Origin: Tolumonas lignilytica | GTDB lineage: Bacteria > Pseudomonadota > Gammaproteobacteria > Enterobacterales > Aeromonadaceae | NCBI RefSeq assembly: GCF_000527035.1 | Contig: NZ_AZUK01000001.1 | Span: 744,001 to 808,000, forward strand | DNA: 64,000 nucleotides | Direction of reading: 5' to 3' | Shown here: piece by piece, positions 26,660 through 46,737 of the stretch | How positions within the stretch are numbered: the stretch's first letter is position 1 | How the letters are laid out: each line of letters begins with the position of its first letter | Position numbers and translations under genes: made by a program | The notes under the pieces: model-generated | What the model was told of the DNA's origin: nothing | The model's input: only the letters and a program-made list of their open reading frames with translations | The model's database searches: none

Positions 26660-27811
26660 ATGAGTGTCATGCATTTTTCTGTTCCACGCGATATCGTCTA
26701 TGGCGAAAATGCCATGCAAACTCTCAGCACATTAAAGGGTAAACGTGCTGCACTAGTTACCGGTGGTAGTTCGATGCAACGCCTCGGTTTTTTAGAACAA
26801 GCACAGGCATTACTGGCCAAAGCCGGTATGACGACCATTGTGATTGATGGTGTGGAGCCTAATCCGTCTGTGGCAACTGTTCAGCGTGGTGCCAAGGCCA
26901 TGCTGGAATTTGAACCGGACTGGATTGTCGCTATCGGCGGGGGATCTGCACTGGATGCAGCAAAGGTAATGTGGTGTTTTTATGAACACCCTCATTTGAA
27001 GTTTGAAGATATTATTGCGGTTGGTTCCATGCCATCGTTACGGAATAAAGCTCGCTTTGTTGCCATTCCTTCTACCAGCGGTACCGCGTCTGAAATCACC
27101 GCCTTTTCGGTCATTACCGATACCGAAAATCACATCAAATACCCGATTGTGGCCGCAGACATGGTGCCTGATCTAGCGATTCTTGATCCGGCCTTACCAG
27201 AGTTTATGCCAGCACATATTACAGCCAACACAGGCATGGATGTCCTGGCGCATGCCACAGAGGCAGTTGCCTCTATTGCAGCGACCTCATTCACCGATCC
27301 TTATGCCATTGAAGCCATTAAATTGGTTCTGGAGAATCTGGAAACCGCCTACGCAGAACCCCACAACAAAACCGCACGCTACAATATGCATAATGCCTCG
27401 GCATTAGCTGGCATGGCGTTCACCAATGCCTCATTAGGTTTAATCCATTCGCTGGCACACAAAATAGGTGGCGAATTTGGTGTCACACACGGACTGGCAA
27501 ACGCAATCCTGATGCCTTACATCATCAACTTCAACCGCCAATTCACGCATAAATATGAACGTGTGGAACAGTTGCTAGGCATTTCAGATCTGGCCGAAGC
27601 CGTTCATCAACTTAACGCCAGACTCAATATTCCGCGCTGCTTTAAAGAATGTCAGGAAGTTGATTTTGATGAGAGCAAATTTCGCGATGTGTTGAATCGC
27701 ATGAGCGAAAATGCACATGCAGATCCATGTACCTTGACCAACCCTGGTAAACCGACGGTGGCTGATGTCAAGGCGCTTTATATCGCAGCTTATTATGGTG
27801 CCGCAATGTAA
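26660..27811 (+). CDS. Iron-containing alcohol dehydrogenase
   Basis: 383 residues of the group III Fe-dependent alcohol dehydrogenase family. NAD-binding GGGS is at 93-96. The metal ligands fit Asp194, His198 (TGMDVLAHATEA), His263 (LIHSLAHKIG) and His277 (GVTHGLAN). It should interconvert an alcohol with its aldehyde or ketone; relatives include butanol, lactaldehyde, glycerol and 1,3-propanediol dehydrogenases, and the sequence does not settle the substrate. Single gene with AGGAG before the ATG and its own terminator. Under fermentation it would reoxidise NADH. Confidence 0.92.
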   Translation: MSVMHFSVPRDIVYGENAMQTLSTLKGKRAALVTGGSSMQRLGFLEQAQALLAKAGMTTIVIDGVEPNPSVATVQRGAKAMLEFEPDWIVAIGGGSALDAAKVMWCFYEHPHLKFEDIIAVGSMPSLRNKARFVAIPSTSGTASEITAFSVITDTENHIKYPIVAADMVPDLAILDPALPEFMPAHITANTGMDVLAHATEAVASIAATSFTDPYAIEAIKLVLENLETAYAEPHNKTARYNMHNASALAGMAFTNASLGLIHSLAHKIGGEFGVTHGLANAILMPYIINFNRQFTHKYERVEQLLGISDLAEAVHQLNARLNIPRCFKECQEVDFDESKFRDVLNRMSENAHADPCTLTNPGKPTVADVKALYIAAYYGAAM

Positions 27812-41310: not shown

Positions 41311-42558
41311 ATGAGCCAGACAACTTCGATTCCTGTTGAGCAACTTAAAATCGGGCATTATGTCGTCTTACCCTTTGGCTGGAAAAATCATCCCTTCCTG
41401 TTTAGCTCTTTTCGCATCAAAGACAATGAACAACTGAAAATCCTGCGCTCTCTGGGTGTAAAAAATATTCCGGTTGATCTAAACAAAAGCATGGTTGAAG
41501 ACAGCGAACCGCTCGAAGCCACCATTCCGGAATCCCCTCCCTCAGAAGCAGAACCTGAAATCGTCTTGCCGGATCCCCATAAGGCGCAACAGCAGGCAGC
41601 CCGCCGCTCAATCCGCCAAGCCGAACGAAGCTTCAGCAATGCAATTTCACCGTTGCGAGAGTCACTGACCAGACTGAATCTGAAACCGGATGAAGGATTA
41701 GCCACTGTCGCCGAGTTGATCCGTAATGCCGCTGCCACGCTGAATGCCACCGAAGGTTCCATTGGGTTTCACTTGGTACGGTCTGTACGTAATGGCGATC
41801 CGTTATTGTTGCATAGTCTCAATGTCGCGTTTATTGCGATGTTAATTGCCAAGGAAGCAGGTTGGGAGCCGTTAGCTATACAAGATGCTGGATTAGCCGG
41901 GTTAGTCCATGACATCGGTGAATTACGCATTCCTACGCAGGTCAGCCGGAAACGGACGGAATTAACGACGGCTGAAACCAATTACCTGAAAATGCATGTC
42001 CAATATGGCTATGAACAGTTAACCCAGTTAAAAGCATTTAATCCGGCTGTGCGTCAGGTTGCCCTGCAACATCATGAATGTCAGGATGGCTCTGGCTATC
42101 CTGCCGGATTAAAAGGGGATGATATTCCGCTACTCAGTCGTTTGATTGCCGTGGTCGATTATTATGAAGAGCAACTGCACCCACGAAATGGACTGGGTTC
42201 CTTGCATCCAAATCAGGTGATCGCCGGATTATACAAAAAGGCAGGCAAGCAATTTGATGTCCAGTTGACCCAACTGCTGATCAAAGTACTGGGGATCTAT
42301 CCACCGGGCAGTCTGGTAACCCTCAGCGACAATACCCTGGCGCTGGTGATGTCCAGTGAACCATCATCTCCGTTGAAGCCGATGGTTTTACCCTATGAAA
42401 AAGGTCGGGTACCGGAAGGCGTTGATCTGATTTCATTACAGAATGACGAGCGTACTATTACAGGCATTGTTGCTTCCGATGAATTGAACTCACAGCAAAT
42501 TGAATACTTCGGATTAACCAAACACGCCTGTTACTATTTCTCTTTACCGCACCAATAA
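41311..42558 (+). CDS. HD-GYP domain protein, probable cyclic-di-GMP phosphodiesterase
   Basis: 415 residues. An N-terminal DUF3391-like region (1-90, PVEQLKIGHYVVLPFGW) precedes an HD-GYP domain (about 150-330). Metal-ligand positions are kept: His168, His200-Asp201, His229, His254-His255 and Asp283, and the GYP loop is DGSGYP (259-264). The usual HDIGK is HDIGE here (Glu204), and the DALT motif after Asp283 is YYEEQ. The family hydrolyses c-di-GMP to GMP or pGpG; with these changes activity is likely but not certain. About 85 residues follow the domain, with no known motif. No membrane segment. Monocistronic. Confidence 0.88.
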   Translation: MSQTTSIPVEQLKIGHYVVLPFGWKNHPFLFSSFRIKDNEQLKILRSLGVKNIPVDLNKSMVEDSEPLEATIPESPPSEAEPEIVLPDPHKAQQQAARRSIRQAERSFSNAISPLRESLTRLNLKPDEGLATVAELIRNAAATLNATEGSIGFHLVRSVRNGDPLLLHSLNVAFIAMLIAKEAGWEPLAIQDAGLAGLVHDIGELRIPTQVSRKRTELTTAETNYLKMHVQYGYEQLTQLKAFNPAVRQVALQHHECQDGSGYPAGLKGDDIPLLSRLIAVVDYYEEQLHPRNGLGSLHPNQVIAGLYKKAGKQFDVQLTQLLIKVLGIYPPGSLVTLSDNTLALVMSSEPSSPLKPMVLPYEKGRVPEGVDLISLQNDERTITGIVASDELNSQQIEYFGLTKHACYYFSLPHQ

Positions 42559-42586
42559 AAAAGGCCCGGCAACCTCTGCCAGGCCT
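42557..42586 (-). terminator. Terminator of the glycyl radical enzyme operon
   Basis: On the minus strand GGCC-T-GGCA, loop GAGGT, TGCC-G-GGCC, then TTTTTTATT. One mismatch in the stem. It lies 17 nt after the stop of the glycyl radical enzyme gene, and abuts the stop of the convergent HD-GYP gene. Confidence 0.88.
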
Positions 42587-42602: not shown

Positions 42603-45035
42603 TTAATGCAGGGTGTGTTCTGTACGGGCAATAATGTCATCCTGCGTATCCGGCGATAATGCCGTGAAAAAGGCAGAATAACCCGCAACACGAACAACCA
42701 GATCGCGATATTGATCAGGATGCGCTTTCGCTGCCAGTAATGTCTCTCGTGAGACAATGTTATATTGCACATGCCAGCCTTTGTGCACCTCAAAGAAAGT
42801 GCGCAGCAATGTCATCAGTTTTTGCCGGTCACGCGGTTGCTCCAGACTGGTCGGGTTCAACTTCTGATTCAGCAATACCCCGCCCAGAATGGCGGCTGTC
42901 GGCAATTTACCAAGCGAATTAAAGACGGCCGTCGGACCATGTGTATCCGTGCCGGATGATGGGCTGGCCCCCTCCGCCAGCGGTGTTCTGGCTTTCCGTC
43001 CATCCGGCGTCGCCATGGTGCCTGCCCCGAACGGCACGTTGGCAGAAATTGACGAGGTGCCTGCATAATATCCCCCGCCAATCGGACCACGGCCATAGCG
43101 GGTATTATGGAAATGGCTGATTTCATCGATGTAACTCTGATAAGCACCCACCAGTAATTCATCTACAGAATCGACATCATTTCCATATTTAGCGGCACGA
43201 TTTAATAACATCTGCCGTAATGCTTCGCCCTCTTCCCCGGCGAAATCGTCGGCCAGTTTTGCCGCCAGTTCCTGTTGGGTAATTTTACCGCTGAACACAA
43301 AATCGCGAACTGCGGCCAGGCTGTTTCCCGTATTGGCGATCCCGACCTGCAGACCGGAAACCCAGTCATATTTTGCCCCGCCTTGCTTCGCGGTCTTACC
43401 GCGTTCAATACAGTCATCAATCAGCGCGGAACAGATGATATCGTGGGCATTTTCTTCCAACATGGTGTCAATGACACAATCAATTTCAATGGTCTTGCGC
43501 GCGTAATAACGCACTTGCCGATCCCAGGCTGACATCACTTCATCGAACGTGCTGAAGTTCCCTAATGTCAAGCCTTTATCCTGTGGCAGAAAGGTTTTTC
43601 CGGTCGTGGCATCTGTTCCTTGTTCCAGTGCTGCCAGCATGACCCTGGTAAAATTAAGGAAACTCATCCCCGTACAGCGATATCCCCACTTGCCGGGCAC
43701 CGCCGTTTCAATACAGCCTATCGCGGAATAGTTATAAGCGTCCTCTTTTTCCACCCCCAATTTAATAAATTCAGGAATGACAATCTCATCGTTATTAAAG
43801 GCCGGCATACCGAAACCGCAGCGGATCACCGACATGCAGGCATCCAGAAAATCGTTACTCATCCCTGCGTGATATCGCACGCTCAAGTTTGGCTGAGTAG
43901 AACGTAACCGGCCACACGATTCCAGAATGGTATAAGACAGCGGATTCACGGCATCGACCGGTTCCCCATGATGCAGTTTTTGTCCACCAATCGTAACGTT
44001 CTGATACATCGGGCTGCCAGCAGAAGACTTGGAGTGCAAGCCTGAACGGATCTTGTTGACCTCCAGCAGTTTCAGCCAGCAGCTATGGAATAACTCGATA
44101 GCCCGTTCCCGTGAAAGTGTGCGCTCTTGCTCTACATCGCGTTGATACCAAGGATAGAGATACTGATCCATCCGGCCAAATGAGACTGAATGACCATTTG
44201 ATTCGATCTGCAAAAACAACTGAATGAAATAACACAGCTGCAATGCCTGCCAGAATGTTTGGGCGGGTTGTTCTGCAATCACGTCGCAATTTTCGGCCAT
44301 CGCCAGCAATTCATCCCGACGGTCTAAGCGTTCTTCTTGGCTGGCCATCTCACGCGCTAAGGCAGCATACCTGCGGATGTGATCTGTCATGGCACTGAAC
44401 GCAATATCCACTGATTTCAGAAATTGTTCACGGTGCAGATCAGCCCAGTCAGCCAGATCCAGACGTTGTCGACGTTCTGCCACTTTCTGGCGAACCCCTT
44501 GGATGCCCACTTGCAGGATCAGTTCATAATCTACAGCCATATGCGCATCACCGGAATTCATGTTGCCTTCAGCCTTAATGATGCCTGATTCCAGTAATGC
44601 TTTGTGGTCCTCTGAAAATAGCGCATAGCAACGGTCACGCACCGTTTGCCCCATCCAAAATGGAGCGATGTCATGAATAATGGCTTTATCTTTCTCTGAT
44701 ACCGAAAAACCGGCACCAGGACGATCTGCCAGTTCATTAATTTCCTTCACTACCCAGTCCATTGTATATTCGGGGAAAATTGGTGCCGCACGCAGATAAG
44801 CCGCCTGATTACCAATAATCAATTCGTCATTATCAATCCAGATGCTCCGTTCTGCCAAATGGTGTGCCAGTGCCAATGCCCGACGCACCACGACTGGCTT
44901 ATCCAGATTCGCCTTATAAGCCTGTGTATAATGCAATGCCCGTTCGGTACAAACTGGTGGCGATACAATATCCACCAGACAGCGTTTGTGATTGCGGATA
45001 CGTTCCGTCAATGTGGTCAGATCCAGTTCAGTCAT
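42603..45035 (-). CDS. ybiW: Glycyl radical enzyme, YbiW type (anhydrosugar-phosphate lyase, probable)
   Basis: 810 residues. Radical Gly near 785 in VRVAGYSAFFTALS; catalytic Cys near 441 with Glu two positions on (AIGCIETAVPGKWGYR), the Cys-x-Glu pattern of dehydratase-like members rather than the Cys-Cys of pyruvate formate-lyase. It matches E. coli YbiW along its length (CTERALHYTQ, VRRALALAHHLA, NNDEIVIPEFIKLG, ILGGVLLNQKLNP). YbiW has been reported to open 1,5-anhydroglucitol-6-phosphate to 1-deoxyfructose-6-phosphate, which FSA then cleaves; I recall this from the literature. The second of two ATGs is chosen for its AGAGG spacing. It follows the activase gene directly, and the fsa gene is divergent. 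Confidence 0.93.
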   Translation of the reverse strand: MTELDLTTLTERIRNHKRCLVDIVSPPVCTERALHYTQAYKANLDKPVVVRRALALAHHLAERSIWIDNDELIIGNQAAYLRAAPIFPEYTMDWVVKEINELADRPGAGFSVSEKDKAIIHDIAPFWMGQTVRDRCYALFSEDHKALLESGIIKAEGNMNSGDAHMAVDYELILQVGIQGVRQKVAERRQRLDLADWADLHREQFLKSVDIAFSAMTDHIRRYAALAREMASQEERLDRRDELLAMAENCDVIAEQPAQTFWQALQLCYFIQLFLQIESNGHSVSFGRMDQYLYPWYQRDVEQERTLSRERAIELFHSCWLKLLEVNKIRSGLHSKSSAGSPMYQNVTIGGQKLHHGEPVDAVNPLSYTILESCGRLRSTQPNLSVRYHAGMSNDFLDACMSVIRCGFGMPAFNNDEIVIPEFIKLGVEKEDAYNYSAIGCIETAVPGKWGYRCTGMSFLNFTRVMLAALEQGTDATTGKTFLPQDKGLTLGNFSTFDEVMSAWDRQVRYYARKTIEIDCVIDTMLEENAHDIICSALIDDCIERGKTAKQGGAKYDWVSGLQVGIANTGNSLAAVRDFVFSGKITQQELAAKLADDFAGEEGEALRQMLLNRAAKYGNDVDSVDELLVGAYQSYIDEISHFHNTRYGRGPIGGGYYAGTSSISANVPFGAGTMATPDGRKARTPLAEGASPSSGTDTHGPTAVFNSLGKLPTAAILGGVLLNQKLNPTSLEQPRDRQKLMTLLRTFFEVHKGWHVQYNIVSRETLLAAKAHPDQYRDLVVRVAGYSAFFTALSPDTQDDIIARTEHTLH

Positions 45036-45037
45036 CA

Positions 45038-45952
45038 TTAACCTCTCAGAATTGCAGTCAGGCCGAAGTCTTTCGCTTTCTGCTCTGCAAAAGCCAATAA
45101 CTCCGGGCGCTCAAGTGGTTGTCGGGCACACTGATAATCAAGCCCGAGTAAATGGTATTTATGCATGCCATAAGTGTGATATGGCAGAAAATGGATTTCC
45201 CTGTTGCCGCCATACTGATCGTAATGTGCCGATGCTTGCTGAATGATGGCAGTCAGTGTCGGCTCGTCGTCATTAAACTCAGGGATGATCGGGACACGAA
45301 ACTGCACATTGGCCGCATGCTCGCCCAGTTGCTGAATATTGCGTTGAATTAACGCCAGCCGGCCGTTCGTCCAGCGCAGAAATTTGTCCGCATCCACATG
45401 CTTGATATCGATCAGCCATAAATCGACCAATGAAATAGCCGGTTCAATGTGATGCCATGGCACATGCAGGCAACTCTCCACAGCCGTGTGGATACCTTCC
45501 GTACGGGCGAGATGTAATAACTGTTGGGTCATCTCCGGTTGCATGAATGGCTCACCACCGGATAATGTCACTCCCCCGCCACTACGTTGATAAAAAGTGT
45601 TATCCCGAAGCACCTGCTTCATGATTTGTTCTGCGGATATGACTTCGCCGCACAAAGAAAGTGCTCCACTCGGACAAATATCAGCCGCCTGCCGCATCAT
45701 CGTTTCTGTGAGTTCGGCTCGCATAATCTGCACAGCACCGGTGGTATCATTTCGGTGAAAACCAACACTTTTGGCCGAACAACGCTGGCATCCGGTAAGA
45801 CATAACCGCTCGTCATACAGCAGATCCGCTTTACGCAAACGACTCTCAGGATTTTGGCACCAGCGACAACTCAACGAACAGCCTTTCAAAAACACGACTG
45901 TTCTGATGCCAGGGCCATCATGTGTGGCATAACGTTGCAGGTTACAAATCAT
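45038..45952 (-). CDS. ybiY: Glycyl radical enzyme activating enzyme (radical SAM), YbiY type
   Basis: 304 residues. It generates the glycyl radical on its partner using SAM and a [4Fe-4S] cluster. The radical SAM motif CSLSCRWC is at Cys25-29-32, after THDGPGIRTVVFLKG. A second Cys group (Cys51, 55, 58 with 93 and 101) suits an auxiliary cluster of the ferredoxin-like insert. GGEP motif TLSGGEPFMQPEM follows. The stop TAA overlaps the first possible ATG of the partner gene. First gene of the operon, 57 nt from the FNR box. Confidence 0.95.
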   Translation of the reverse strand: MICNLQRYATHDGPGIRTVVFLKGCSLSCRWCQNPESRLRKADLLYDERLCLTGCQRCSAKSVGFHRNDTTGAVQIMRAELTETMMRQAADICPSGALSLCGEVISAEQIMKQVLRDNTFYQRSGGGVTLSGGEPFMQPEMTQQLLHLARTEGIHTAVESCLHVPWHHIEPAISLVDLWLIDIKHVDADKFLRWTNGRLALIQRNIQQLGEHAANVQFRVPIIPEFNDDEPTLTAIIQQASAHYDQYGGNREIHFLPYHTYGMHKYHLLGLDYQCARQPLERPELLAFAEQKAKDFGLTAILRG

Positions 45953-46009
45953 AATTGATCCTGTCTCTTTATTTCACTTTCATTTAAATACTTTCACTTG
46001 AAACTTATT

Positions 46010-46023
46010 TTGATCTATATCAA
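46010..46023. promoter_or_regulatory. FNR box between ybiYW and fsa
   Basis: TTGATCTATATCAA, a perfect match to TTGAT-N4-ATCAA. Rightward, TATAGT (46046-46051) lies with its centre 32 bp from the box centre, which places FNR at about -41.5, the class II activation position for fsa. Leftward, a weaker TTAAAT/TATTTA element lies 29-32 bp away for ybiY. The site suggests joint anaerobic activation. Confidence 0.85.
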
Positions 46024-46083
46024 TAGCGTTCCAGATCCATCTTTATATAGTGAGATCTGTAAACTGACTCACAGGAGAAATAT

Positions 46084-46737
46084 ATGGAGCTTTATCTTGA
46101 TAGCGCTGATCTGAATGCCATTGAACGATTAGCGCGTTTTATGCCGATTCACGGTGTCACCACCAACCCAAGCATCATTGCCAAAGGGGGACAATCCCTG
46201 GCGCAAGTATTGCCTGAGTTACGGGCAATGCTGGGAGCAGAGAAGATCCTGTTTGCGCAAGTCATGAGTGATAAAGCGGAAGCCATGGCGACAGAAGCAG
46301 AGCATCTGCAAACGTTGGATCCACAACTTGTGATAAAAATTCCTGTTACACCGGAGGGATTGCGTGCCATTCAGCTATTGAAACAACGCCAGATCAAAAC
46401 GTTAGGCACAGCCGTTTATTCTCCGATGCAAGCCCTGTTAGCCGCATTAGCCGGGGCCAGCTATGTCGCCCCTTATGTCAACCGGATTGATGCTCAAGGC
46501 GGCAGCGGCATTAAATGTGTTCAAGAATTACAACAACTTCTGACCTTGCATGCCCCCGAGTGCCAGATTTTGGCCGCCAGCTTTAAAACACCCCGCCAAG
46601 TGCTGGATTGTCTGCTGGCCGGATGTACCAGTATTACCCTGCCGATAGATGTGGCTGAACAATTAGTGCGTAATCCGGCCGTAGATATGGCCATGGCACA
46701 ATTCAAGCAAGATTGGCAGCAAGCGTTTGGTGCTTGA
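46084..46737 (+). CDS. fsa: Fructose-6-phosphate aldolase (transaldolase-like)
   Basis: 217 residues, close to the 220 of E. coli FsaA. It cleaves fructose-6-phosphate or 1-deoxyfructose-6-phosphate to glyceraldehyde-3-phosphate plus dihydroxyacetone or hydroxyacetone. Schiff-base Lys85 lies in [10 protein letters not shown], the same number as in E. coli. [31 protein letters not shown] and [17 protein letters not shown] are typical. AGGAG precedes the ATG. Divergent from the glycyl radical operon, as the probable next step of the same pathway. Confidence 0.95.

Follow-up and report, generated by a model that had tools for sequence, protein, structure and literature searches.

A YbiW-type glycyl radical enzyme unit in Tolumonas lignilytica and a conserved two-box promoter pointing to possible joint control by FNR and YciT

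As set out in the accessible text of a 2025 review (PMC12441222), the Escherichia coli glycyl radical enzyme YbiW cleaves 1,5-anhydroglucitol-6-phosphate and PflD cleaves 1,5-anhydromannitol-6-phosphate, in each case after phosphorylation by the phosphotransferase system (PTS) and with 1-deoxyfructose-6-phosphate as the product. That text credits the work to Ma et al. (JACS 2024) and states of the product only that it is "further metabolized". In E. coli K-12 the ybiW-ybiY gene pair is divergent from fsaA, encoding a fructose-6-phosphate aldolase (FSA), and ybiW is followed by ybiV (sugar phosphatase) and ybiU; the pflD-pflC neighbourhood also brings together a glycyl radical enzyme, an activase and an FSA (fsaB), with the frw PTS genes, ptsA and gldA nearby. 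FSA cleaves 1-deoxyfructose-6-phosphate to glyceraldehyde-3-phosphate and hydroxyacetone. Here we describe the corresponding unit of Tolumonas lignilytica (genome size 3.63 Mb), located in a stretch of 64,000 nucleotides (contig NZ_AZUK01000001.1, positions 744,001 to 808,000 of the forward strand), hereafter referred to as the window.

We estimate a probability of about 85% that the ybiW-ybiY/fsaA module of E. coli has its Tolumonas orthologue in this unit, with the pathway and the regulation proposed below. Since the review assigns the cleavage of 1,5-anhydroglucitol-6-phosphate to YbiW, in agreement with the ring-opening named in a first-pass annotation of the window, the pathway itself is already known, and the unit represents the same pathway in a further genome. 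The new part of the analysis is a conserved, putative two-box switch ahead of the pathway genes, promoter elements being absent from the earlier annotation. The three-gene unit recognized there is confirmed: all three open reading frames (ORFs) are intact, and the aldolase gene is divergent from those of the enzyme and the activase. The features are as follows:

42603..45038, minus strand: glycyl radical enzyme, YbiW orthologue of 811 aa, with catalytic Cys442 and Gly786 (ORF, profiles, alignment)
45038..45952, minus strand: radical-SAM activase, YbiY orthologue of 304 aa, 5′ of the enzyme gene with a 1-base overlap (ORF, profiles, alignment)
45990..46005, no strand assigned: candidate operator of YciT (DeoR family), a palindrome of the type ACTTTC-CACTT(N4)-GAAACT, which differs from ACTTTC-N4-GAAAGT by 1 mismatch and keeps the TTTC-N4-GAAA core intact (promoter alignment)
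46010..46023, no strand assigned: perfect FNR box TTGATCTATATCAA, 60 bp 5′ of the FSA start codon (pattern scan)
46084..46737, plus strand: FSA, FsaA orthologue of 217 aa, with Lys85 present (ORF, profiles, alignment)
42562..42586, minus strand: terminator-like hairpin with a T tail, just 3′ of the enzyme gene (recognized by its pattern alone; six matches vs 4.1 expected in the scanned stretch)

The enzyme shares 76% identity with YbiW of E. coli K-12 over 810 residues, with 1 gap. It carries the PFL-like (665.6 bits) and Gly_radical (112.1 bits) domains of Pfam, and both predicted catalytic motifs are present, with Cys442 in GCIETAV and Gly786 in RVAGYSAFF. The loop AIGCIETAV is shared with 92 of 93 distinct YbiW-type relatives and VRVAGYSAFF with all 93. 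The only NCBIfam model whose cut-off is passed is that of the broad PFL2-3 subfamily (1157.8 vs 678.2 bits); scores for HypD, CutC, sulfopropanediol dehydratase, indoleacetate/hydroxyphenylacetate decarboxylase, PflD and the PFL models remain below their cut-offs. A search of solved chains placed three YbiW-type structures (6xs4, 8yjn and 8id7) at the top, with 1427-1442 bits. Of 584 candidate stretches that were confirmed, the best 80 served as named loci for comparison, and the closest relatives among them are from Tolumonas (90, 85 and 84% identity). The full-length orthology, the identical Cys and Gly loops, the common gene order and the role ascribed to YbiW in the accessible text of PMC12441222 together support the assignment of the protein as a YbiW-type 1,5-anhydroglucitol-6-phosphate lyase, as had been predicted.

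Tolumonas auensis is a toluene producer, which prompted the idea that the window enzyme might be an arylacetate decarboxylase; this candidate was rejected on the scores with the two respective models (338 bits vs a cut-off of 1100 for indoleacetate and 289 vs 1150 for 4-hydroxyphenylacetate decarboxylase). Another genome of the genus (G002) encodes three YbiW-type enzymes (L133, L134 and L135, with 84, 87 and 81% identity), and GldA and a second FSA-like start are found some kilobases from the L134 copy.

The predicted partners of the enzyme were confirmed as well. The activase is 55% identical to E. coli YbiY, scores 319.6 bits with TIGR02494 (glycyl-radical enzyme activase; cut-off 174.35), and, like YbiY, contains two CX3CX2C motifs, one at residue 25 (CSLSCRWC) and the other at residue 51. 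The FSA is 62% identical to E. coli FsaA and exceeds two cut-offs (NF009296, 357 vs 306; TIGR00875, 274.7 vs 245.95); Lys85, together with 15 other compared positions, is identical to that of E. coli FsaA and FsaB. The genome contains only two matches to the transaldolase/FSA family, this protein among them.

Comparison with the 80 named loci revealed that the activase gene is located immediately 5′ of the enzyme gene in 78, and that an FSA gene, divergent and at most 300 bp from the activase gene, is present in 65. Because E. coli K-12 has the same divergent order, and so do these 65 loci, the compact arrangement is the usual one and not a peculiarity of the window. The remaining 15 loci, including seven of Yersinia and one of T. 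osonensis, have no FSA gene there. On its outer sides the unit is flanked by a convergent gene for a DUF3391 and HD-domain protein (window 41311-42558, plus strand), which stands where E. coli has ybiV and ybiU, and by a cluster of five tRNA genes, so that the absence of an adjoining transporter, pointed out in the first-pass annotation, holds. An ORF with a similar-looking N-terminus is convergent with the FSA gene in an Aeromonas locus (L171:6004-7209).

The activase and FSA genes are separated by an intergenic region of 131 bp, which contains the sole mismatch-free FNR box of the window. The genome contains 14 such boxes in 3.6 Mb, vs 1 for the reversed pattern, and FNR itself is also encoded (79% identity); thus both a box in the promoter and the protein are present. 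Among 76 distinct activase-FSA intergenic regions, the best FNR box is free of mismatches in 22, deviates at 1 position in 38 and at 2 positions in 16. In shuffled regions, preserving single-base composition only and derived from 82 intergenic regions including repeats of the same contigs, the corresponding frequencies were 0.01, 1.15 and 10.7%. The box of the K-12 promoter has one mismatch. This conservation independently supports the earlier view of the unit as oxygen-sensitive and anaerobic. According to the accessible text of PMC3136414, YbiW was raised in Shigella dysenteriae in the gut, alongside a shift to anaerobic metabolism. A scan for sigma-70 promoters found fewer promoter-like sites than in shuffles (3 vs 6.1), and we therefore make no claim about a class II spacing between the FNR box and the -10 region of fsa, which was seen by eye only. 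Elsewhere in the genome, perfect FNR boxes are located near grcA (2755813; grcA-type match 2755272-2755442) and about 60-75 bp 5′ of an iron-containing alcohol dehydrogenase match, possibly an anaerobic reductase (G000:C1:1906898-1906911).

Alignment of the promoters disclosed a second conserved element, the palindrome ACTTTC-N4-GAAAGT, which is present with 0, 1, 2 or 3 mismatches in 49, 14, 10 and 3 of the 76 regions, respectively. With at most 2 mismatches it was found in 73 of the 76, vs 0.8% of shuffles of the same kind, and in 71 of these 73 its end lies exactly 4 bp ahead of the FNR box. The pair, likewise 4 bp apart in the window, recurs in Aeromonadaceae and Enterobacterales, mostly with this spacing, and an FNR-like box and the palindrome are both present in the ybiY/fsaA promoter of E. 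coli K-12. Seventeen upstream regions lack FSA; 10 of them have an FNR box and 8 have the palindrome, in each case with no more than 1 mismatch. When up to 2 mismatches are allowed, 107.7 kb of E. coli DNA contain the full palindrome 8 times (0-10 in 20 shuffles of the same kind); since this count falls within the shuffle range, the loose pattern alone is weak, and its support comes from position and conservation.

A lead to the protein that may bind this palindrome came from the third enzyme copy of G002, whose gene is convergent with a DeoR-family gene, the product of which is 49% identical to E. coli YciT (305.9 bits, below the cut-off of 450 of the YciT model). DeoR-family relatives typically sense sugar phosphates. 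Of the 80 named loci, 77 extend 900 bp or more past the enzyme gene, and 19 encode a YciT orthologue directly 3′ of it in the same orientation; these are loci of Hafnia, Serratia, Enterobacter, Buttiauxella, Franconibacter, Chimaeribacter, Edaphovirga and Aeromonas. In a hand-selected sample of 26 of 37 Aeromonadaceae genomes, a protein matching YciT with 49% identity or more was found in 15 of the 16 with a full-length enzyme and in none of the 10 without; the sole enzyme-positive genome lacking it (G017) is 71% complete. In six of these 16 genomes yciT comes after the enzyme gene in the same orientation, and G002 has one convergent copy. In an Aeromonadaceae locus of G024 (L171:11554-11956), the enzyme gene and yciT are separated by a tandem array of a 111-bp unit (3.6 copies, 97% matches), which reiterates the 3′ end of the former gene.

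The T. lignilytica genome encodes a YciT orthologue (52% identity to that of E. coli), and the E. coli protein binds the equivalent promoter: the accessible text of PMC8464067 reports YciT peaks 5′ of ybiUVWY and fsaA, altered expression of ybiV, ybiY and fsaA upon deletion of yciT, and a palindromic motif. The same text, from 2021, links YciT as a regulator to osmolarity, counts 49 binding sites for it and describes the targets concerned here as rare and physiologically unknown. We located the TTTC-N4-GAAA core 5′ of four of ten named E. coli YciT targets, namely ybiY/fsaA, ybiV, ybiO and phnA (the last named as a target in the accessible text of PMC7567609), and also 5′ of ybiU. It was found in one of 27 control regions (that of pdeR, near yciT), and the E. 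coli DNA examined, 119.7 kb in total, has 8 copies of it. The controls were upstream regions hand-picked from this DNA; of 28 chosen, one shared with a target was dropped and one was shortened. These data support, but do not prove, the view of TTTC-N4-GAAA as a candidate YciT operator. Among the papers searched by text, none mentions yciT together with anhydroglucitol. We propose that YciT is the cognate regulator of the pathway, gated together with FNR.

The predicted course of events is as follows. Under anoxia, the activase would install a glycyl radical at Gly786, from which a thiyl radical would be generated at Cys442; this would open 1,5-anhydroglucitol-6-phosphate to 1-deoxyfructose-6-phosphate, which FSA would then split into glyceraldehyde-3-phosphate and hydroxyacetone. 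Also under anoxia, FNR would switch on the shared divergent promoter, while a YciT-type regulator at the adjacent site would probably respond to a sugar phosphate of the pathway. The activase and the enzyme would thus be expressed leftwards and FSA rightwards, with both arms under the putative control of FNR and YciT. A stronger version of this model, which we judge to have slightly better than even odds, is that the main role of YciT is not in osmolarity: it would serve the radical anhydroglucitol pathway as its dedicated sensor of a sugar phosphate, binding TTTC-N4-GAAA 4 bp from the FNR box, and the composite element would fire both arms only without oxygen and with the pathway phosphate. 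The position of yciT next to the enzyme gene, as in Serratia, Hafnia, Buttiauxella, Aeromonas and others, would then be ancestral, and both E. coli and this Tolumonas would have lost it.

The substrate is predicted to be supplied by a general glucose-type PTS, probably encoded elsewhere in the genome. There are 14 PTS_EIIC matches above the cut-off, and two PtsG-like IIBC proteins (77 and 72% identity) are encoded. A mannose-type EIID (PF03613) was not found in the Tolumonas genome; the same profile has matches in 3 of 14 control genomes. Nine iron-containing alcohol dehydrogenase genes pass the Pfam cut-off. The window contains a gene for an iron-containing alcohol dehydrogenase (26660-27811, plus strand), whose best NCBIfam match is the C-terminal part of AdhE (385 bits, below the cut-off), so that it is placed in no equivalog.

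Active-site comparison, which the first-pass annotation had called for, places the enzyme with YbiW and apart from both PflD and the glycerol dehydratases; the grouping with another glycyl radical enzyme class that would have refuted the annotation was not observed. An enzyme of the PflD type, acting on 1,5-anhydromannitol-6-phosphate, would belong to the same superfamily and share its chemistry, that substrate being paired with PflD in the accessible text of PMC12441222; in K-12, moreover, PflD also has FSA and PTS genes nearby. The window enzyme, however, is only 37% identical to PflD and scores 544.6 bits with the PflD equivalog NF007437 (cut-off 1109). Of 363 columns that are invariant in it and the 93 relatives, PflD deviates at 176, and R454-C455-T456-G457, invariant in all of them, is replaced by G-L-H-D in PflD; PTS genes and gldA are likewise missing beside the Tolumonas unit, and we regard a PflD-type function as quite improbable. 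Even less credence is given to a glycerol/diol dehydratase or some other glycyl radical dehydratase acting on small substrates, although the titles of PDB entries label YbiW a "probable dehydratase", and the B12-independent glycerol dehydratase 1r8w, of the same fold family and with comparable GC-x-E and Gly loops, is the fourth-best solved structure. Its score is 548 bits, far below those of the YbiW-type chains; its Asp447, which has a role in glycerol binding, aligns with Gly457 of the window enzyme, and the GCVEP loop of glycerol dehydratase aligns with GCIET. The gene partner is also an aldolase, and not a propanediol dehydrogenase.

Several points weigh against the YbiW-type assignment and the regulation proposed with it. 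At 16 positions the window protein does not carry the residue on which 95% of its relatives agree, and it has one additional C-terminal residue; two of these positions, N161 and M167, are beside His166, and an altered specificity is therefore possible. Searched with E. coli GldA, the genome gave no orthologue (three comparison genomes gave matches of 68, 68 and 57%), for which reason the predicted reduction of hydroxyacetone is tentative. The Tolumonas yciT is not linked to the unit (G000:C1:112770), the palindrome with at most 2 mismatches was not found within 16 kb around it, and the core was not found 5′ of the other six E. coli targets (ompX, cusF, ydbD, ycaP, yfdQ and ykfC). The seven Yersinia loci (L037, L038, L040, L044, L045, L056 and L078) retain the enzyme and activase with no FSA alongside and have neither box within 250 bp, and the relatives compared are non-independent samples. 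The consensus departures and the missing GldA would also fit a pathway that has drifted in Tolumonas towards a different phosphorylated anhydro-polyol, as would the three enzyme copies of G002, one of which (L134) has a Gfo/Idh/MocA-type oxidoreductase and a GutQ-type isomerase for neighbours, suggesting varied uses within the genus. Such drift is unlikely in our view, given that the Cys and Gly loops and the other compared motifs are otherwise YbiW-like, and that FSA and the promoter boxes are retained.

With the YbiW-type reading, a recently described anaerobic pathway is extended to a further genome of the Aeromonadaceae, and the conservation of its layout is confirmed. The advance is a modest one, in that the gene set is ordinary and the regulatory hypothesis is new. 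The analysis of the promoter leads to a concrete, testable function for YciT, described for osmolarity in E. coli and here proposed as cognate to the anhydroglucitol pathway, and a two-box promoter of this kind would account for the joint sensing of oxygen and substrate ahead of an enzyme that is killed by oxygen.

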